Shown one piece after another: positions 19,740 through 60,233 of a stretch of DNA of 64,000 bases; the first letter of the stretch is position 1; the number at the start of each line of letters is the position of its first letter. Source of the stretch: Sphingomonas sp. (lineage in GTDB: Bacteria; Pseudomonadota; Alphaproteobacteria; Sphingomonadales; Sphingomonadaceae). The position numbers were made by a program, and so were the translations under genes. The notes under the pieces are model-generated. The model saw only the letters and a list, made by a program, of their open reading frames with translations. It searched no databases and had not been told where the DNA came from. The stretch lies in assembly GCF_017744835.1 (NCBI RefSeq), contig NZ_JAGIAM010000003.1:434001-498000 (forward strand), read 5' to 3'.

Positions 19740-20201
19740 ATGGGGGATATCAGCGCCGAGCCTTCGATGGAGGAGATCCTCTCCTCCATCAAGCGCATCA
19801 TCGCCGAGGAAGGCGATGCGGCAGTCGGCGCGCGCGCGCGCCGCAGCCGCGCCGCGCCTGCGCCCGTCGAAGAGGCCGAGGCTCCCGAGGACGAGGGCAC
19901 GCACGAAGTGCTCGAGCTCAGCCAGGCCGTGGCCGACGAGCGCGCGAAGCCCGCCGCGCCCAAGCCGCGCACCGCGCCCGAGCCGATCCTTTCCCAACAG
20001 GCGGTGGAGGCGACTCGCCAGCCGCTCGAGGCACTGTCGCGCATCGTCGTGAAGCCCGAAGTGCCTGGCTCGGACACGCTCGAGGGGCTGGTCCGCGAGC
20101 TGCTCAAGCCGATGCTTCGCGATTGGCTCGACGCCAATCTGCCGCAGATCGTCGAGGCGATGGTCGCGCGCGAAATCTCCCGGATCACCGGCGGGCGCTG
20201 A
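19740..20201 (+). CDS. popZ: PopZ-type polar organising protein (DUF2497)
   Basis: 153 residues. The N-terminal helix EPSMEEILSSIKRIIAEEG is the hallmark of the PopZ/DUF2497 family. A Pro/Glu/Ala-rich acidic linker follows, and the C-terminal oligomerisation part is LEGLVRELLKPMLRDWLDANLPQIVEAMVAREI. In Caulobacter PopZ forms a polar matrix that anchors ParB-parS and signalling proteins. ATG 19740 has GAGGAGAAGG upstream and gives the conserved N-terminus. This copy has a fairly short linker. It lies downstream of tolC. Confidence 0.88.
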   Translation: MGDISAEPSMEEILSSIKRIIAEEGDAAVGARARRSRAAPAPVEEAEAPEDEGTHEVLELSQAVADERAKPAAPKPRTAPEPILSQQAVEATRQPLEALSRIVVKPEVPGSDTLEGLVRELLKPMLRDWLDANLPQIVEAMVAREISRITGGR

Positions 20202-54238: not shown

Positions 54239-54328
54239 CGTCACCCCCGCGAAAGCGGGGGCCCATCTCCCGAAAGGCGGTGCCTCGCGCCCCGCAGGAG
54301 ATAGGTCCCCGCTTTCGCGGGGATGACG
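54239..54328. repeat. Imperfect palindromic intergenic repeat (GTCAC...ATGAC type)
   Basis: A 90-bp element with outer arms CGTCACCCCCGCGAAAGCGGGG and CCCCGCTTTCGCGGGGATGACG and a middle part with CATCTCC and GGAGATAG. It starts ten bases after the coaX stop and ends 22 bases before rnj. Confidence 0.8.
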
Positions 54329-56276: not shown

Positions 56277-56359
56277 TGTCATCTCCGCGAAGGCGCGGAC
56301 CCAGGAATCACGAGCGACGTCGCTGATGGCTCCGGGGCTCCGCCTTCGCGGGGATGACG
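56277..56359. repeat. Imperfect palindromic intergenic repeat (GTCAT...ATGAC type)
   Basis: Outer arms TGTCATCTCCGCGAAGGCG and CGCCTTCGCGGGGATGACG with inner arms GACCCAGG and GGCTCCGGGGCT. It lies between the convergent DUF1467 gene and the coiled-coil gene at 56366, and nearly fills the gap. Confidence 0.75.
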
Positions 56360-56365
56360 GGACGC

Positions 56366-58681
56366 CTAGGTCCGCAGGCGCTCGATTGCCTGGGCCAGCG
56401 CGACGTAGAGCTTGCCCATGTCGGACGAAAGCAGCGTCACGCCCAGCGGCGAGCCGTCGCGCAGCGTCAGGATGTGCCGCAACATCGCCTCGAAGTCGTG
56501 GATGTAGCGGTTGACGTTCTCGTGGAAGCCTTCGTCCTCGTCATAGAGGCGCGCGATCTCGCGGGTCTGTGACGGGTCGAGCAGCCGCACTGCGCGCCGC
56601 GTGAAGACGCCGCGGTCGCCCTTGAGATAGGCCGCCCAGGCGCTGTCTGCGACTTCGGCCGAGAAGGCCTTGGCGATGTCGATCGACGCCGAGTTGAGCG
56701 CCTCGACGAGCAGCGAGACGCGGCGCGAGAAATTCTCGCTGTCGGCCTTCTCGATCTCGCCGCGCGCGTCGGCGATCTGCGCTTCGACCTTGGACGTGGT
56801 GTTGGCGAGCGTCACCATCTGCTGGGTGAGCTTTTCCGAAGCGAGCGTCGCAGCCGCGATCGCGGCCTCGGTAGCCTCGGCCAATTCGGCGAGCTGCCAG
56901 CGCACCGATCCGTCGACCGCGCGCTTGAGCGCGGCGTTGCTCGCATCCTCGAGCGCGCGCGCCGCCTCGGGCGCGACACCGGCGAGCGTCTTGCGGGCAT
57001 GATCCGCCGCGGCGGTCGCGGTCTCGCGCACCTGGAGCAGCGCGTCGACAAGTTGGGGGGCGGCGGTTTCGGCGAAGCGGCGGGTGGTGTCGATCGTCTC
57101 GTCGACGATGGTGCCGAGCGCATGCGCCTGCTCGCCGCCGGTGGCCAGCGTCTCGAGCAGCGAGGCCTGGGTCTTGGCGAGCGTGTCGCGCTGCTGCGAG
57201 ACGACGCCGGCGATCGCCTCGATCGCGTCGTGCGTGCTCTCGGCGGCAGTGACCAGCGCGAGCAGCTCGGGCTTGGCGCCGGCGACGACCTGCCGGCTCG
57301 CGACGATCCGGTCGTCGAGCCGCTCGAGCGCCGCGGGGAGCGTCTCGTCGATCTCGCGCGCCGAGGCGTCGAGCGCCGTCAGCAGGTCCTCGGAAGTGCC
57401 GATCACCTTGCGGGCCAGATCCTCGCCGGCGCGCAGGGCGTGACCCATCGCATCCATCGACCCGTGGAGCGCGCTCACCGACGCGGCGAGCGCCTGGGTC
57501 CGCTCCATGCCGCTGGCGTGCAGCGCGTCGAGCTCGCGGTCGATCCGGTCGACGCCGCCCGAGAGCCCCTCGAACAGCGCCTCGCCGCGACCCTGCTCCT
57601 CGCCGAGCCGGGCGCCGATGCGCGTGATCCGCTCCTCGATCTCGGCCATGCGCGCGCCCAGCGCCTCGGCGCTGTCGCGACCCGCACGGTCGAGCGCGGC
57701 CTGGTTGGCGCCGAGCATGGCGAGGATCGCCTCGCCCTGCGCGGCGATGCCTTTGCGCGCCTCGTCCACGGCCTGGGCGGCGCGGTCGAGCACGCCGTCG
57801 ACGGCGTTGGACATCTCGCCGGTGACTTGCTCGAGCCGCGCACTGGCGGTCTCGCTGGTCGCCTCCATGCGAGCGATGTGCGCGGCGAGCCGCTCGGCGG
57901 CGCCCCCGGCGATCGCGTCGGCGTCGCGCCCGCGCTCGGCAAGCGCGGTGAGCTGCGTGTCGAGCGACGCCGCACGCTGGCTGGCGGCCAGCCCGGCGGA
58001 ATCGAGCCGCCCGGCCATCTCGCGCATCTCGTCATGCGCCTTGGGTAGCGAGGAGAGGACGATTTCGACGCGGCGCTCGGCCTCTGCGGTGGCATCGCCG
58101 AGCGCACGGCTGCTCGTGTCGATCGCACGGGCATGCCGGTCGGCGGTATTGGCCACCGATTCGAGCTGCTCGGCGGCGCGGTCGCCCATCGCGATCAGCA
58201 GATTGGTCTGCTCGGCGAGCATCTCGCGGTTCTCGGCGATCTTGCGCGCGAGCGTGGCGACGACTCGCTCGAGGCTCGCTGCCTCGGCGCGCATCGCGCG
58301 GGCAGTGGCGCCGAAGCGCTTCGCCTCGGCGCGGCTCGTGCGCAGGCCCAGAAGATAGAGGATGCCGATCAGCGCCGGTGGCACGCACATCGCCGCGAGC
58401 AGCTGCACCAATGTAACAGGCTCGATCGGCCCCTGCAGCGCCGGGAGCACCAGCCACGTGGCCACGCCGATCCAGGCAAGCGCGGCAAGTACCGCCAGCG
58501 CCGGCACCAGCCAGCCTGCGCCGCCGCGGGCCTCGTCTTCTTCTTCGTCGATCTCGTACATCGTCTCGGGCTCGGGCTCCGGCTCGGCGTGCACGAAGGC
58601 ACCGACCTCGACCGGCTGATGTTGCGCGTTGCCGCCGGCCGCGGCGCGTTTGGCGAATTCTGCGGGCTGTCCCCCAATCAT
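56366..58681 (-). CDS. Large membrane-anchored coiled-coil protein, unknown function
   Basis: 771 residues. A short acidic N-terminus (EPEPEPETMYEIDEEEDEA) is followed by two membrane helices at about 56-80 and 91-112, then about 560 residues of nearly unbroken Ala/Glu/Arg/Leu heptads (for example SLERVVATLARKIAENREML). The C-terminal 110 residues seem folded: NFSRRVSLLVEALNSASIDIA, AWAAYLKGDRGVFTRRAVRLL and MLRHILTLRDGSPLGVTLLSS. The long helix resembles methyl-accepting chemotaxis and ATP-independent scaffold proteins, but no HAMP or MCP hairpin motif is seen. The cell location would be the inner membrane with the coil in the cytoplasm. A palindrome lies immediately upstream. Confidence 0.8.
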   Translation of the reverse strand: MIGGQPAEFAKRAAAGGNAQHQPVEVGAFVHAEPEPEPETMYEIDEEEDEARGGAGWLVPALAVLAALAWIGVATWLVLPALQGPIEPVTLVQLLAAMCVPPALIGILYLLGLRTSRAEAKRFGATARAMRAEAASLERVVATLARKIAENREMLAEQTNLLIAMGDRAAEQLESVANTADRHARAIDTSSRALGDATAEAERRVEIVLSSLPKAHDEMREMAGRLDSAGLAASQRAASLDTQLTALAERGRDADAIAGGAAERLAAHIARMEATSETASARLEQVTGEMSNAVDGVLDRAAQAVDEARKGIAAQGEAILAMLGANQAALDRAGRDSAEALGARMAEIEERITRIGARLGEEQGRGEALFEGLSGGVDRIDRELDALHASGMERTQALAASVSALHGSMDAMGHALRAGEDLARKVIGTSEDLLTALDASAREIDETLPAALERLDDRIVASRQVVAGAKPELLALVTAAESTHDAIEAIAGVVSQQRDTLAKTQASLLETLATGGEQAHALGTIVDETIDTTRRFAETAAPQLVDALLQVRETATAAADHARKTLAGVAPEAARALEDASNAALKRAVDGSVRWQLAELAEATEAAIAAATLASEKLTQQMVTLANTTSKVEAQIADARGEIEKADSENFSRRVSLLVEALNSASIDIAKAFSAEVADSAWAAYLKGDRGVFTRRAVRLLDPSQTREIARLYDEDEGFHENVNRYIHDFEAMLRHILTLRDGSPLGVTLLSSDMGKLYVALAQAIERLRT

Positions 58682-58685
58682 ACAG

Positions 58686-58700
58686 TTTGTGTATCACAAA
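58686..58700. promoter_or_regulatory. Palindrome TTTGTG-TAT-CACAAA at the start of the coiled-coil gene
   Basis: Perfect 6-bp arms around a TAT centre, four bases upstream of the start codon of the minus-strand coiled-coil gene and 55 bp from the start of the Hpt-like gene on the other strand. No ribosome-binding sequence is visible for the coiled-coil gene there. An operator or a leaderless-transcript start are the options. Confidence 0.4.
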
Positions 58701-58755
58701 TCGCCGGGGCACCAACAGCGCGAACGCAACGAATGGTTAAGAGCCGTGGCGTAGC

Positions 58756-59058
58756 ATGGCGACCATGGCTTATGACCCTGGTGCGATCGATGCGACGCTG
58801 GCGGCGGCGGTGGGCGACGAGCCCGCGCTGATCGTCGAGCTGCGCGAGGCTTTCCTCGAGAGCGTGAAGCGCTGCCTCGCGACGATGAAGGCCGCCGACG
58901 GGCCCGAGAGCTGGACCGCCGCGGCGCTGCGCCTCAAGGGCCTCGCGGCAAGCTTCGGCGCGATCCGGCTGATGGCGCTCGCCTCCGAAGCCGCCGCCGG
59001 CCAGACCCGCGACGCCGAAATGCTCCGCCGCATCCAGCGCGCGATCGAGCGGCTCTAA
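58756..59058 (+). CDS. Degenerate Hpt-like protein (phospho-acceptor His missing)
   Basis: 100 residues. The pattern VGDEPALIVELREAFLESVKRCLATM, then AALRLKGLAASFGAIRLMALASEAA, and RRIQRAIERL, is that of a four-helix Hpt domain. In active Hpt domains the central motif is HxLKGxAxxxGA; here it reads LRLKGLAASFGA, with Leu58 in place of His. So it probably cannot carry phosphate and may instead bind response regulators or a kinase. ATG 58756 has a second ATG three codons on. The stop overlaps the stop of the VWA gene on the other strand. Confidence 0.78.
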   Translation: MATMAYDPGAIDATLAAAVGDEPALIVELREAFLESVKRCLATMKAADGPESWTAAALRLKGLAASFGAIRLMALASEAAAGQTRDAEMLRRIQRAIERL

Positions 59059-60233
59059 CGCTTCCGGCTCAGCTCGCGCATCGCGTCGTCGAGCCCGGCG
59101 AGGGTGAGCGGGTACATGCGGTCGTGCATCAGCTCGCGGATCAGGCGCACCGACTGCGAATAGCTCCAGTGCGCCTCGGGCAGCACGTTGAGCCACACCG
59201 CGGCGGGATAGGTGCTCACCAGCCGCTGCATCCACAGCGCGCCGGCTTCCTCGTTGAAATGCTCGACCGATCCGCCGGGATGCGTGATCTCATAGGCGCT
59301 CATCGAGGCGTCGCCGACGAACACCAGCTTATAGTCGTGGCCGTATTTGTGGAGGATGTCGCGGGTCGGCGTCCGCTCGGTGAAGCGGCGAGCGTTGTCC
59401 TTCCACACGCCCTCGTAGATGCAATTGTGGAAGTAGAAGAATTCGAGGTTCTTGAACTCGCTGGTCGCGGCCGAGAACAGCTCCTCGCAGAGCTTGATGT
59501 GCGGGTCCATCGATCCGCCGACGTCGAGGAAGAGCAGCAGCTTGACGGCGTTGTGCCGCTCGGGGCGCATCCGCACGTCGAGCCAGCCCTGGCGCGCGGT
59601 GCCGTCGATCGTCGCGTCGATGTCGAGCTCGTCGGCCGCACCCTCGCGGGCGAAGCGGCGCAGCCGGCGTAGCGCGAGCTTGATGTTGCGCGTGCCCAGC
59701 TCGCGGCTGCTGTCGAGGTTGCGGAACGCGCGCTGCTCCCAGACCTTGATCGCGCGCCCGTGCCTCGACTCGCCGCCGATGCGCACGCCTTCGGGATTGT
59801 AGCCCGCGTTCCCGTACGGCGAGGTGCCGCCGGTGCCGATCCAATTGCTGCCGCCCTGATGGCGTTCGTGCTGTTCTTCCAGCCGCTTGCGCAGCGTTTC
59901 CATGATCTCGTCCCAGGAGCCGAGCGCCTTGATCTCGGCCATCTCCTCGGACGTCAGGAACTTCTCGGCGACGGCCTTCAGCCACTCCTCGGGGATGTCG
60001 GCGGGCGCGGCTCCGTAGCTGGTCTCGACGCCCTTGAAGACCTGCGCGAACACCTGGTCGAAGCGGTCGAGCAGCCCCTCGTCCTTCACATAGGTGGCGC
60101 GGGCGAGATAATAGAAAGCCTCGGGCGTGCGCTCGATCACGTCGCGGTCGAGCGCCTCGAGCAGCAGCAGATGCTCCTTGAGGCTCGCCGGGATGCCGGC
60201 GGCGCGCAGCGCGTCGAGGAAGGCGAGGAACAT
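59055..60233 (-). CDS. CoxE-like VWA-domain protein
   Basis: 392 residues. The N-terminal part AFLDALRAAGIPASLKEHLLLLEAL, FYYLARATYVKDEGLLDRFDQVFAQVF is the CoxE-like domain. The C-terminal half is a von Willebrand A domain with LLLFLDVGGSMDPHIKLCEEL as a modified MIDAS (DxGGS in place of DxSxS), and KLVFVGDASMSAYE. CoxE proteins work with MoxR-type AAA ATPases in metal-cofactor enzyme maturation, but no MoxR gene lies next to this one in the window. The stop overlaps that of the Hpt-like gene (shared CTAA). Confidence 0.9.
   Translation of the reverse strand: MFLAFLDALRAAGIPASLKEHLLLLEALDRDVIERTPEAFYYLARATYVKDEGLLDRFDQVFAQVFKGVETSYGAAPADIPEEWLKAVAEKFLTSEEMAEIKALGSWDEIMETLRKRLEEQHERHQGGSNWIGTGGTSPYGNAGYNPEGVRIGGESRHGRAIKVWEQRAFRNLDSSRELGTRNIKLALRRLRRFAREGAADELDIDATIDGTARQGWLDVRMRPERHNAVKLLLFLDVGGSMDPHIKLCEELFSAATSEFKNLEFFYFHNCIYEGVWKDNARRFTERTPTRDILHKYGHDYKLVFVGDASMSAYEITHPGGSVEHFNEEAGALWMQRLVSTYPAAVWLNVLPEAHWSYSQSVRLIRELMHDRMYPLTLAGLDDAMRELSRKR

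Follow-up and report, generated by a model that had tools for sequence, protein, structure and literature searches.

A 771-aa protein encoded in a 64,000-nucleotide stretch of Sphingomonas sp. DNA (the window, i.e., the whole stretch that was analysed) probably belongs, as its sphingomonad member, to the TipN/GPR/RgsE family of alphaproteobacterial polar scaffolds. The protein carries the marks of this family, namely a homologous C-terminal domain, two N-terminal helices detected by hydropathy, and a long helical middle. The roles of TipN, GPR, and RgsE differ, and the function of the window protein can therefore not be read from family membership; a polar localisation would be expected from the family. 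The gene, the parts of its product, and its neighbours are as follows.

56366..58681, minus strand: gene of the 771-aa protein, probably TipN/GPR/RgsE-type; intact open reading frame with an ATG start
58520..58681, minus strand: acidic, variable N-terminus, residues 1-54, with high entropy and reduced occupancy among relatives
58334..58519, minus strand: two membrane helices and a short loop by hydropathy, residues about 55-116
56747..58321, minus strand: long amphipathic helical stretch by periodicity, residues 121-645, a probable coiled coil whose length varies across the family
56369..56746, minus strand: C-terminal domain, residues 646-771, which conservation and profile comparison mark as the family signature
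58682..58764, no strand: shared divergent intergenic region of 83 bp between the 771-aa gene and the Hpt-like gene
58726..58741, plus strand: GCAA-N7-TTAA element, a candidate box of the CtrA type whose first half is degenerate; its TTAA begins 28 bp upstream of the Hpt start
58765..59058, plus strand: Hpt-like protein with Leu in place of the phospho-acceptor His (PF01627, E 3e-4, below the cut-off)
59055..60233, minus strand: VWA/CoxE-like gene past the Hpt gene (PF05762, E 8.6e-9)

The feature marked earlier ended at position 58700, which is 19 bp beyond the start codon of the 771-aa gene. The sequence-only reading had described a protein of 771 residues with an acidic N-terminus and two membrane helices, and all of this was confirmed: residues 1-55 contain 13 D/E versus 3 K/R, and the hydropathy peaks lie near residues 55-83 and 88-116. 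Residues 121-640 contain 23% Ala and five Pro, and would extend over about 77 nm by arithmetic if wholly helical. Hydrophobic periodicity in this stretch reached 0.87, 1.10, and 0.80 at 3.5, 3.6, and 3.667 residues, compared to maxima of 0.49, 0.55, and 0.44 in 200 shuffles each, and was not above the shuffles at 3.0, 4.0, and 5.0 residues. Because the periodicity at 3.5-3.667 residues is strong and exceeds that of the shuffles, residues 121-640 are a long amphipathic helix. The potential coil of roughly 80 nm proposed from the sequence thus held in length and amphipathic character, but the peak at 3.6 residues alone is no proof of a heptad coiled coil, and the coil is graded as probable.

The same reading had proposed a compact end domain. 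Five of six 15-residue blocks between residues 676 and 765 showed a mean entropy of 0.07-0.59 (1.27 for residues 706-720) in an alignment of 110 Sphingomonadaceae-type sequences that includes some duplicates; some blocks of the coil were also low in entropy in this alignment. Conservation of the domain is therefore on the side of the proposal, but the AlphaFold model of the last 201 residues, folded from an alignment in which close sequences were thinned (47 of 80 loci used), was poor, with a mean pLDDT of 68 and a pTM of 0.32, so that no fold comparison or structure search was based on it. Pfam and NCBIfam yielded sub-threshold matches to the 771-aa protein and no model at the cut-off. A profile search of the PDB for a relative of known structure of the C-terminal domain returned helical chains, among them designed bundles, apolipoproteins, and hemagglutinin HA2; most of these matches covered the variable upstream portion of the alignment, and the candidates were rejected.

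A BLAST match to the protein was present in 59 of the 61 genomes of the genus and order, and the gene is single copy in its own genome. Beyond its own family within the order, the best match was often limited to the last 150-250 residues. The 20 loci examined at the level of the order had frames of 662-1054 aa, some of them cut by contig ends, and those with the N-terminus present mostly had two membrane segments. The Sphingomonas-type counts given below refer to the best 80 of 492 confirmed loci, i.e., the closest relatives, which were titled Sphingomonas, Stakelama, Hephaestia, Sphingosinithalassobacter, and uncultured sphingomonads or bacteria, with one Bacillus. The last of these (L100, contig RPSH01000029.1, titled Bacillus sp. 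2B10) carries Sphingomonas-type glycosyltransferase-like, VWA, scaffold, and Hpt genes, which points to probable mislabelling or contamination of the record.

A class-wide search was performed with a profile of the last 214 positions of the family alignment. This C-terminal profile matched 154 of 387 Alphaproteobacteria genomes, mostly with one match each, and the surroundings were fetched for roughly one genome per family among those 154. The stop-to-stop frames ranged from 330 to 2752 aa in the 82 homologues with upstream sequence; 73 of the 82 had an N-terminal hydrophobic pair with a spacing of 20-60 residues, seven had one segment, and two had an unclear pattern. With frame lengths varying while the membrane pair and the end domain persist, the anchors and the end domain are best read as largely constant, and the coil as a spacer of variable length. 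Two homologues, in L248 (genome G158) and L232 (genome G116), contain one in-frame TAA each. All four genomes checked of family f25 had a frame of 330-366 aa with two membrane helices, a weak end-domain match, and almost no coil (L197:8142-9131, L198:7697-8758, L191:838-1899, and L194:1390-2487); this frame may be a stripped-down relative, which would show the end domain acting alone.

TipN was represented by unnamed Caulobacteraceae proteins, identified as candidates via a taxon marker, length, and layout. MipZ of genome G478 matched the PDB MipZ chains 2XIT, 2XJ4, and 2XJ9, which are from C. crescentus, with E-values near 1e-169 and few differences across 278 residues; because of this near-identity, G478 is placed in the Caulobacter group, and family f59 is the one that holds this group. 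RF01867 had been tried as the Caulobacter marker and was replaced by MipZ, being unspecific (above the cut-off also in G297 of family f65). The direct profile match was weak in the f59 genomes (E 1e-5 and 6e-4) and lay at the extreme C-terminus of frames of 838 and 1005 residues with two membrane segments. A TipN candidate gene was found in 38 of the 40 f59 genomes searched. The candidate of G478 has 885 aa counted from the first Met, and the published length of TipN is 882 aa (PMC13170164).

Alignment of the family C-terminus with the C-terminus of the TipN candidates by hhalign gave a score of 88.5 and a probability of 98.3 over 119 columns. The inputs were 78 family sequences, free of Caulobacteraceae, and 20 TipN-candidate sequences, L264 being left out as cut off. 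The controls scored far lower, with a maximum of 18.2 in 100 column shuffles, 14.4 for the reversed alignment, 14.7 for an Hpt alignment, and 11.0-14.0 for three pieces of the TipN coil. Published TipN contains two N-terminal TMs together with a large C-terminal coiled coil, and it is reported to mark the new pole and the division site, to recruit TipF, and to bind ParA (PMC9178275). The likeness to the 771-aa protein thus comprises the two N-terminal membrane helices, the long coil, the homologous domain at the very end, and a similar length (882 versus 771 aa), whereas the C-terminal domains themselves are alike only at a distance. A Pro-rich linker, noted by eye, precedes the C-terminal domain in the two Caulobacteraceae proteins read, and no Hpt or VWA gene was detected beside the two Caulobacteraceae loci examined. 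In Caulobacter, PopZ is a polar organiser that acts alongside TipN. A PopZ-family match (PF10691, DUF2497) is located in the window at 19983-20189 on the plus strand, approximately 36 kb from the 771-aa gene. Conservation of TipN in Alphaproteobacteria was reportedly noted in the original TipN papers of 2006.

The GPR/RgsE type was likewise represented by unnamed homologues, assigned via length, layout, and repeats. GPR is described as a protein of 2,115 aa with two N-terminal TMs and apolipoprotein repeats (PMC8262873), and RgsE as one of 2,089 aa with two TMs and with remote homologues in Emcibacterales and Rhodospirillales; the presence of Rgs is reported to exclude that of MreB and vice versa (PMC7327166). 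GPR has been called similar to TipN (PMC8546619), and the two have been called 'analogous' (PMC13170164). Five homologue genomes, of families f65, f154, and f158, had no full-length MreB match; the other hits reached only E 1e-14 to 1e-16, and from their frame lengths we read them as other actin-fold proteins, e.g., DnaK. The homologues in these five genomes had frames of 1608-2752 aa, and all five contained PF01442 stretches above the cut-off (12 in L199, 15 in L202, 8 in L201, 7 in L203, and 5 in L200). Frame length by itself was ruled out as a mark of the GPR type by five other frames of 1979-2491 aa in genomes with MreB. Three of the latter were scanned for PF01442; L231 had eight stretches, and L216 and L253 had none. 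Genome G094 has no full-length MreB match, yet its frame is only 986 aa.

The window protein has in common with GPR of Agrobacterium and RgsE of Sinorhizobium the two N-terminal membrane helices; the GPR/RgsE-type proteins of MreB-less genomes have a huge helical middle, the homologous C-terminal domain, and a divergent Hpt neighbour. The VWA gene was present in the fetched stretch of 8 of the 88 class-wide loci. One of these was L199, whose genome is MreB-less and whose homologue frame is 2752 aa; its order VWA (+), Hpt (-), homologue (+) is the gene order and orientation of the window. This common arrangement supports, as evidence separate from the end domain, that the window gene is orthologous to those of GPR/RgsE-type proteins. 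The size of about 2000 aa and the many PF01442 repeats of the GPR/RgsE subtype, which were found in L199-L203 (about 1600-2750 aa, PF01442-rich), were both absent from the window protein, for which no PF01442 match was listed in Pfam at E up to 1; nor is its host MreB-less, as the window genome has MreB (E 1.1e-142). Since its own genome has both MreB and PopZ, and since the protein is devoid of apolipoprotein matches, the TipN-like end of the family is the better comparison. It is accordingly unlikely that the protein is a GPR-like scaffold of cell-wall growth and not a TipN-like landmark of polarity and segregation. GPR-type homologues do have both the C-terminal domain and the Hpt neighbour in common with the window, and the two TipN candidates examined gave no Hpt gene next to them, but with MreB in the genome a dispersed or midcell growth is expected, and the protein is TipN-sized.

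Imperfect inverted repeats at 56278-56358, abutting the end of the 771-aa gene, and at 54239-54328 of the window flank an RNase J-like gene (labelled by eye) and a DUF1467 gene. Their arms are related (25 nt, 84% complementary; 41 nt, 83% complementary), and the two elements look like dispersed intergenic repeats.

The divergent neighbour encodes the Hpt-like protein, whose conserved start, MAYD, is located 9 bp downstream of the first ATG. By tblastn, the gene was found in 65 of the Sphingomonas-type loci (best 80 of 492) and was divergent in 65 of 65. In the other 15 loci, the fetched stretch did not show it; the six of them that were examined had a different frame of 251-438 aa in its place. 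Given these 15 loci, the gene would be accessory or dispensable. Class-wide, a divergent Hpt gene stood beside the homologue in 25 of the 80 loci with at least 1.5 kb of upstream sequence (eight of the 88 had less and were left out). These belong to 14 of 59 GTDB families, i.e., f1 and f4-f7 of the own order and f10, f16, f53, f65, f106, f110, f112, f154, and f158, and include all five MreB-less genomes of f65, f154, and f158. The open-frame edges of the paired genes were -39 to 1178 bp apart, and a same-strand Hpt hit inside a 905-aa frame in L236 was excluded from the count. The pairing with a pseudo-Hpt gene, regarded as a hint in the sequence-only reading, is thus meaningful. That reading had also named a match to an apolipoprotein-like family with a different role, together with a pairing that was not conserved, as evidence against its proposal; some relatives do contain apolipoprotein repeats, but the pairing is conserved.

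The phospho-acceptor His was kept in 21 of 21 paired Hpts outside Sphingomonadaceae, from 13 families, and was absent in 69 of 69 Sphingomonadaceae loci and in the window (70 in total). Across the 69 loci, it was replaced by L, W, F, A, M, Q, or S, mostly by Leu, Trp, or Phe. The paired Hpts passed the Pfam Hpt cut-off in seven of seven cases scanned outside Sphingomonadaceae, and the one scanned from another Sphingomonadaceae genus had no Pfam Hpt match. The window neighbour resembles Hpt domain proteins (PF01627) in its helical-bundle model and in the region of the H-x-L-K-G motif, which is alignable, whereas it has Leu where they have the phospho-acceptor His. The AlphaFold model, folded from a thinned set of 36 sequences minus the truncated L051, was confident (pLDDT 92). 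Five of its six best PDB matches were labelled Hpt domains or proteins, with TM scores of 0.58-0.70 but E of about 0.2 to 0.3; none of the 337 matches reached E 0.001 or less, and unrelated helical bundles ranked after the Hpt domains. A profile search of the PDB with the Hpt-like protein found no relative. The median dN/dS of the gene was 0.30 over 1081 non-independent pairs, a sign that it is still constrained, if moderately. Judged from the motif, the paired Hpts outside Sphingomonadaceae could carry phosphate, and the Hpt-like protein described here, with the His lost, cannot do so by the usual route. Replacement of an exposed His by a hydrophobic residue would suggest a binding face and not phosphotransfer.

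The shared intergenic region contains a conserved element. With that of the window counted, 66 of 69 intergenic regions (48 of 50 after removal of redundant ones) had TTAA at -32 to -27 relative to the Hpt start, compared to 5 of 4899 positions elsewhere; regions with no settable Hpt start motif were left out of the count. The 4-mer located 11 bp upstream of the TTAA was GAAA in 39 of 66, sometimes GCAA, GTAA, or ATAA, and TTAA in 2 of 66. The pattern GNAACN6TTAAS had a single match in the window, with 0.08 expected. The CcsA/CckA-ChpT-CtrA phosphorelay of Sphingomonas melonis is said to control motility. The CtrA box is given as TTAA-N7-TTAA (PMC9437464), and CtrA control of the shared promoter, with the element as a candidate box, is plausible.

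These gene arrangements also bear on whether the protein is an unrelated envelope tether that merely has the C-terminal domain in common with the family and lies next to a divergent Hpt gene by chance. The Hpt gene was indeed not found in 15 of 80 Sphingomonas-type loci or in 45 of 59 families, but the divergence of every Hpt gene found in the former, the recurrence of the arrangement in 14 families, and the promoter element conserved between the scaffold and Hpt genes make such a coincidence very improbable. Least probable is a receptor-like protein with a chemoreceptor-type coil and no periplasmic sensor that signals to the Hpt-like protein, for although a long amphipathic helix follows two membrane helices and the Hpt-family neighbour is conserved, neither Pfam nor NCBIfam gave an MCP, HAMP, kinase, receiver, or other signalling-domain match up to an E of 1, the coils of homologues range from almost none to more than 2000 residues, which a two-helix hairpin of fixed register would hardly tolerate, and the Hpt-like partner here is devoid of the usual phospho-acceptor. 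The earlier alternative of a membrane tether or a receptor is therefore narrowed to the former, in the shape of a scaffold with TipN/GPR/RgsE-type homologues, and the proposed likeness to chemoreceptor signalling coils was not borne out.

As a TipN/GPR/RgsE-type scaffold, the protein would be anchored in the inner membrane by its two predicted N-terminal helices, with the N-terminus and the coil presumably in the cytoplasm. The long coil of freely varying length would space the scaffold and probably oligomerise it. The working end common to the family would be the C-terminal domain, which at the new pole and the division site probably recruits partners, with ParA/PopZ-linked or envelope-growth proteins as candidates; a recruiting module is proposed because the domain is conserved and because C-terminal deletions of GPR are reported to block complementation (PMC8262873). 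Given the gene arrangement, the Hpt-like protein probably acts as an accessory, co-expressed with the scaffold and docking on it or on its clients. We tentatively consider a wider scheme, possible though short of an even chance, in which an Hpt encoded back to back with the TipN/GPR/RgsE scaffold was an ancestral partner through which a phosphorelay acted on polarity or polar growth. The Sphingomonadaceae would have turned this partner into a phosphorylation-dead adaptor, with subsequent loss in some lineages, and would have retained the scaffold and the shared, possibly CtrA-controlled promoter.

Titles and abstracts among the matches listed in the open-licence literature mentioned neither a sphingomonad TipN nor an Hpt gene paired with the TipN/GPR/RgsE family. 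The data place a protein that was unannotated, although present in nearly all of the genus and order genomes (59/61), in a family that sets polarity and polar growth in other Alphaproteobacteria, and they provide sequence evidence that TipN-type and GPR/RgsE-type proteins have one common C-terminal domain. Across families, an Hpt gene accompanies the sphingomonad members and those of the GPR/RgsE type, an association absent from those same titles and abstracts. If this Hpt works with the scaffold, a pole scaffold would be tied to phosphorelay signalling, and the His-less version of Sphingomonadaceae would be a natural experiment on the contribution of phosphorylation.
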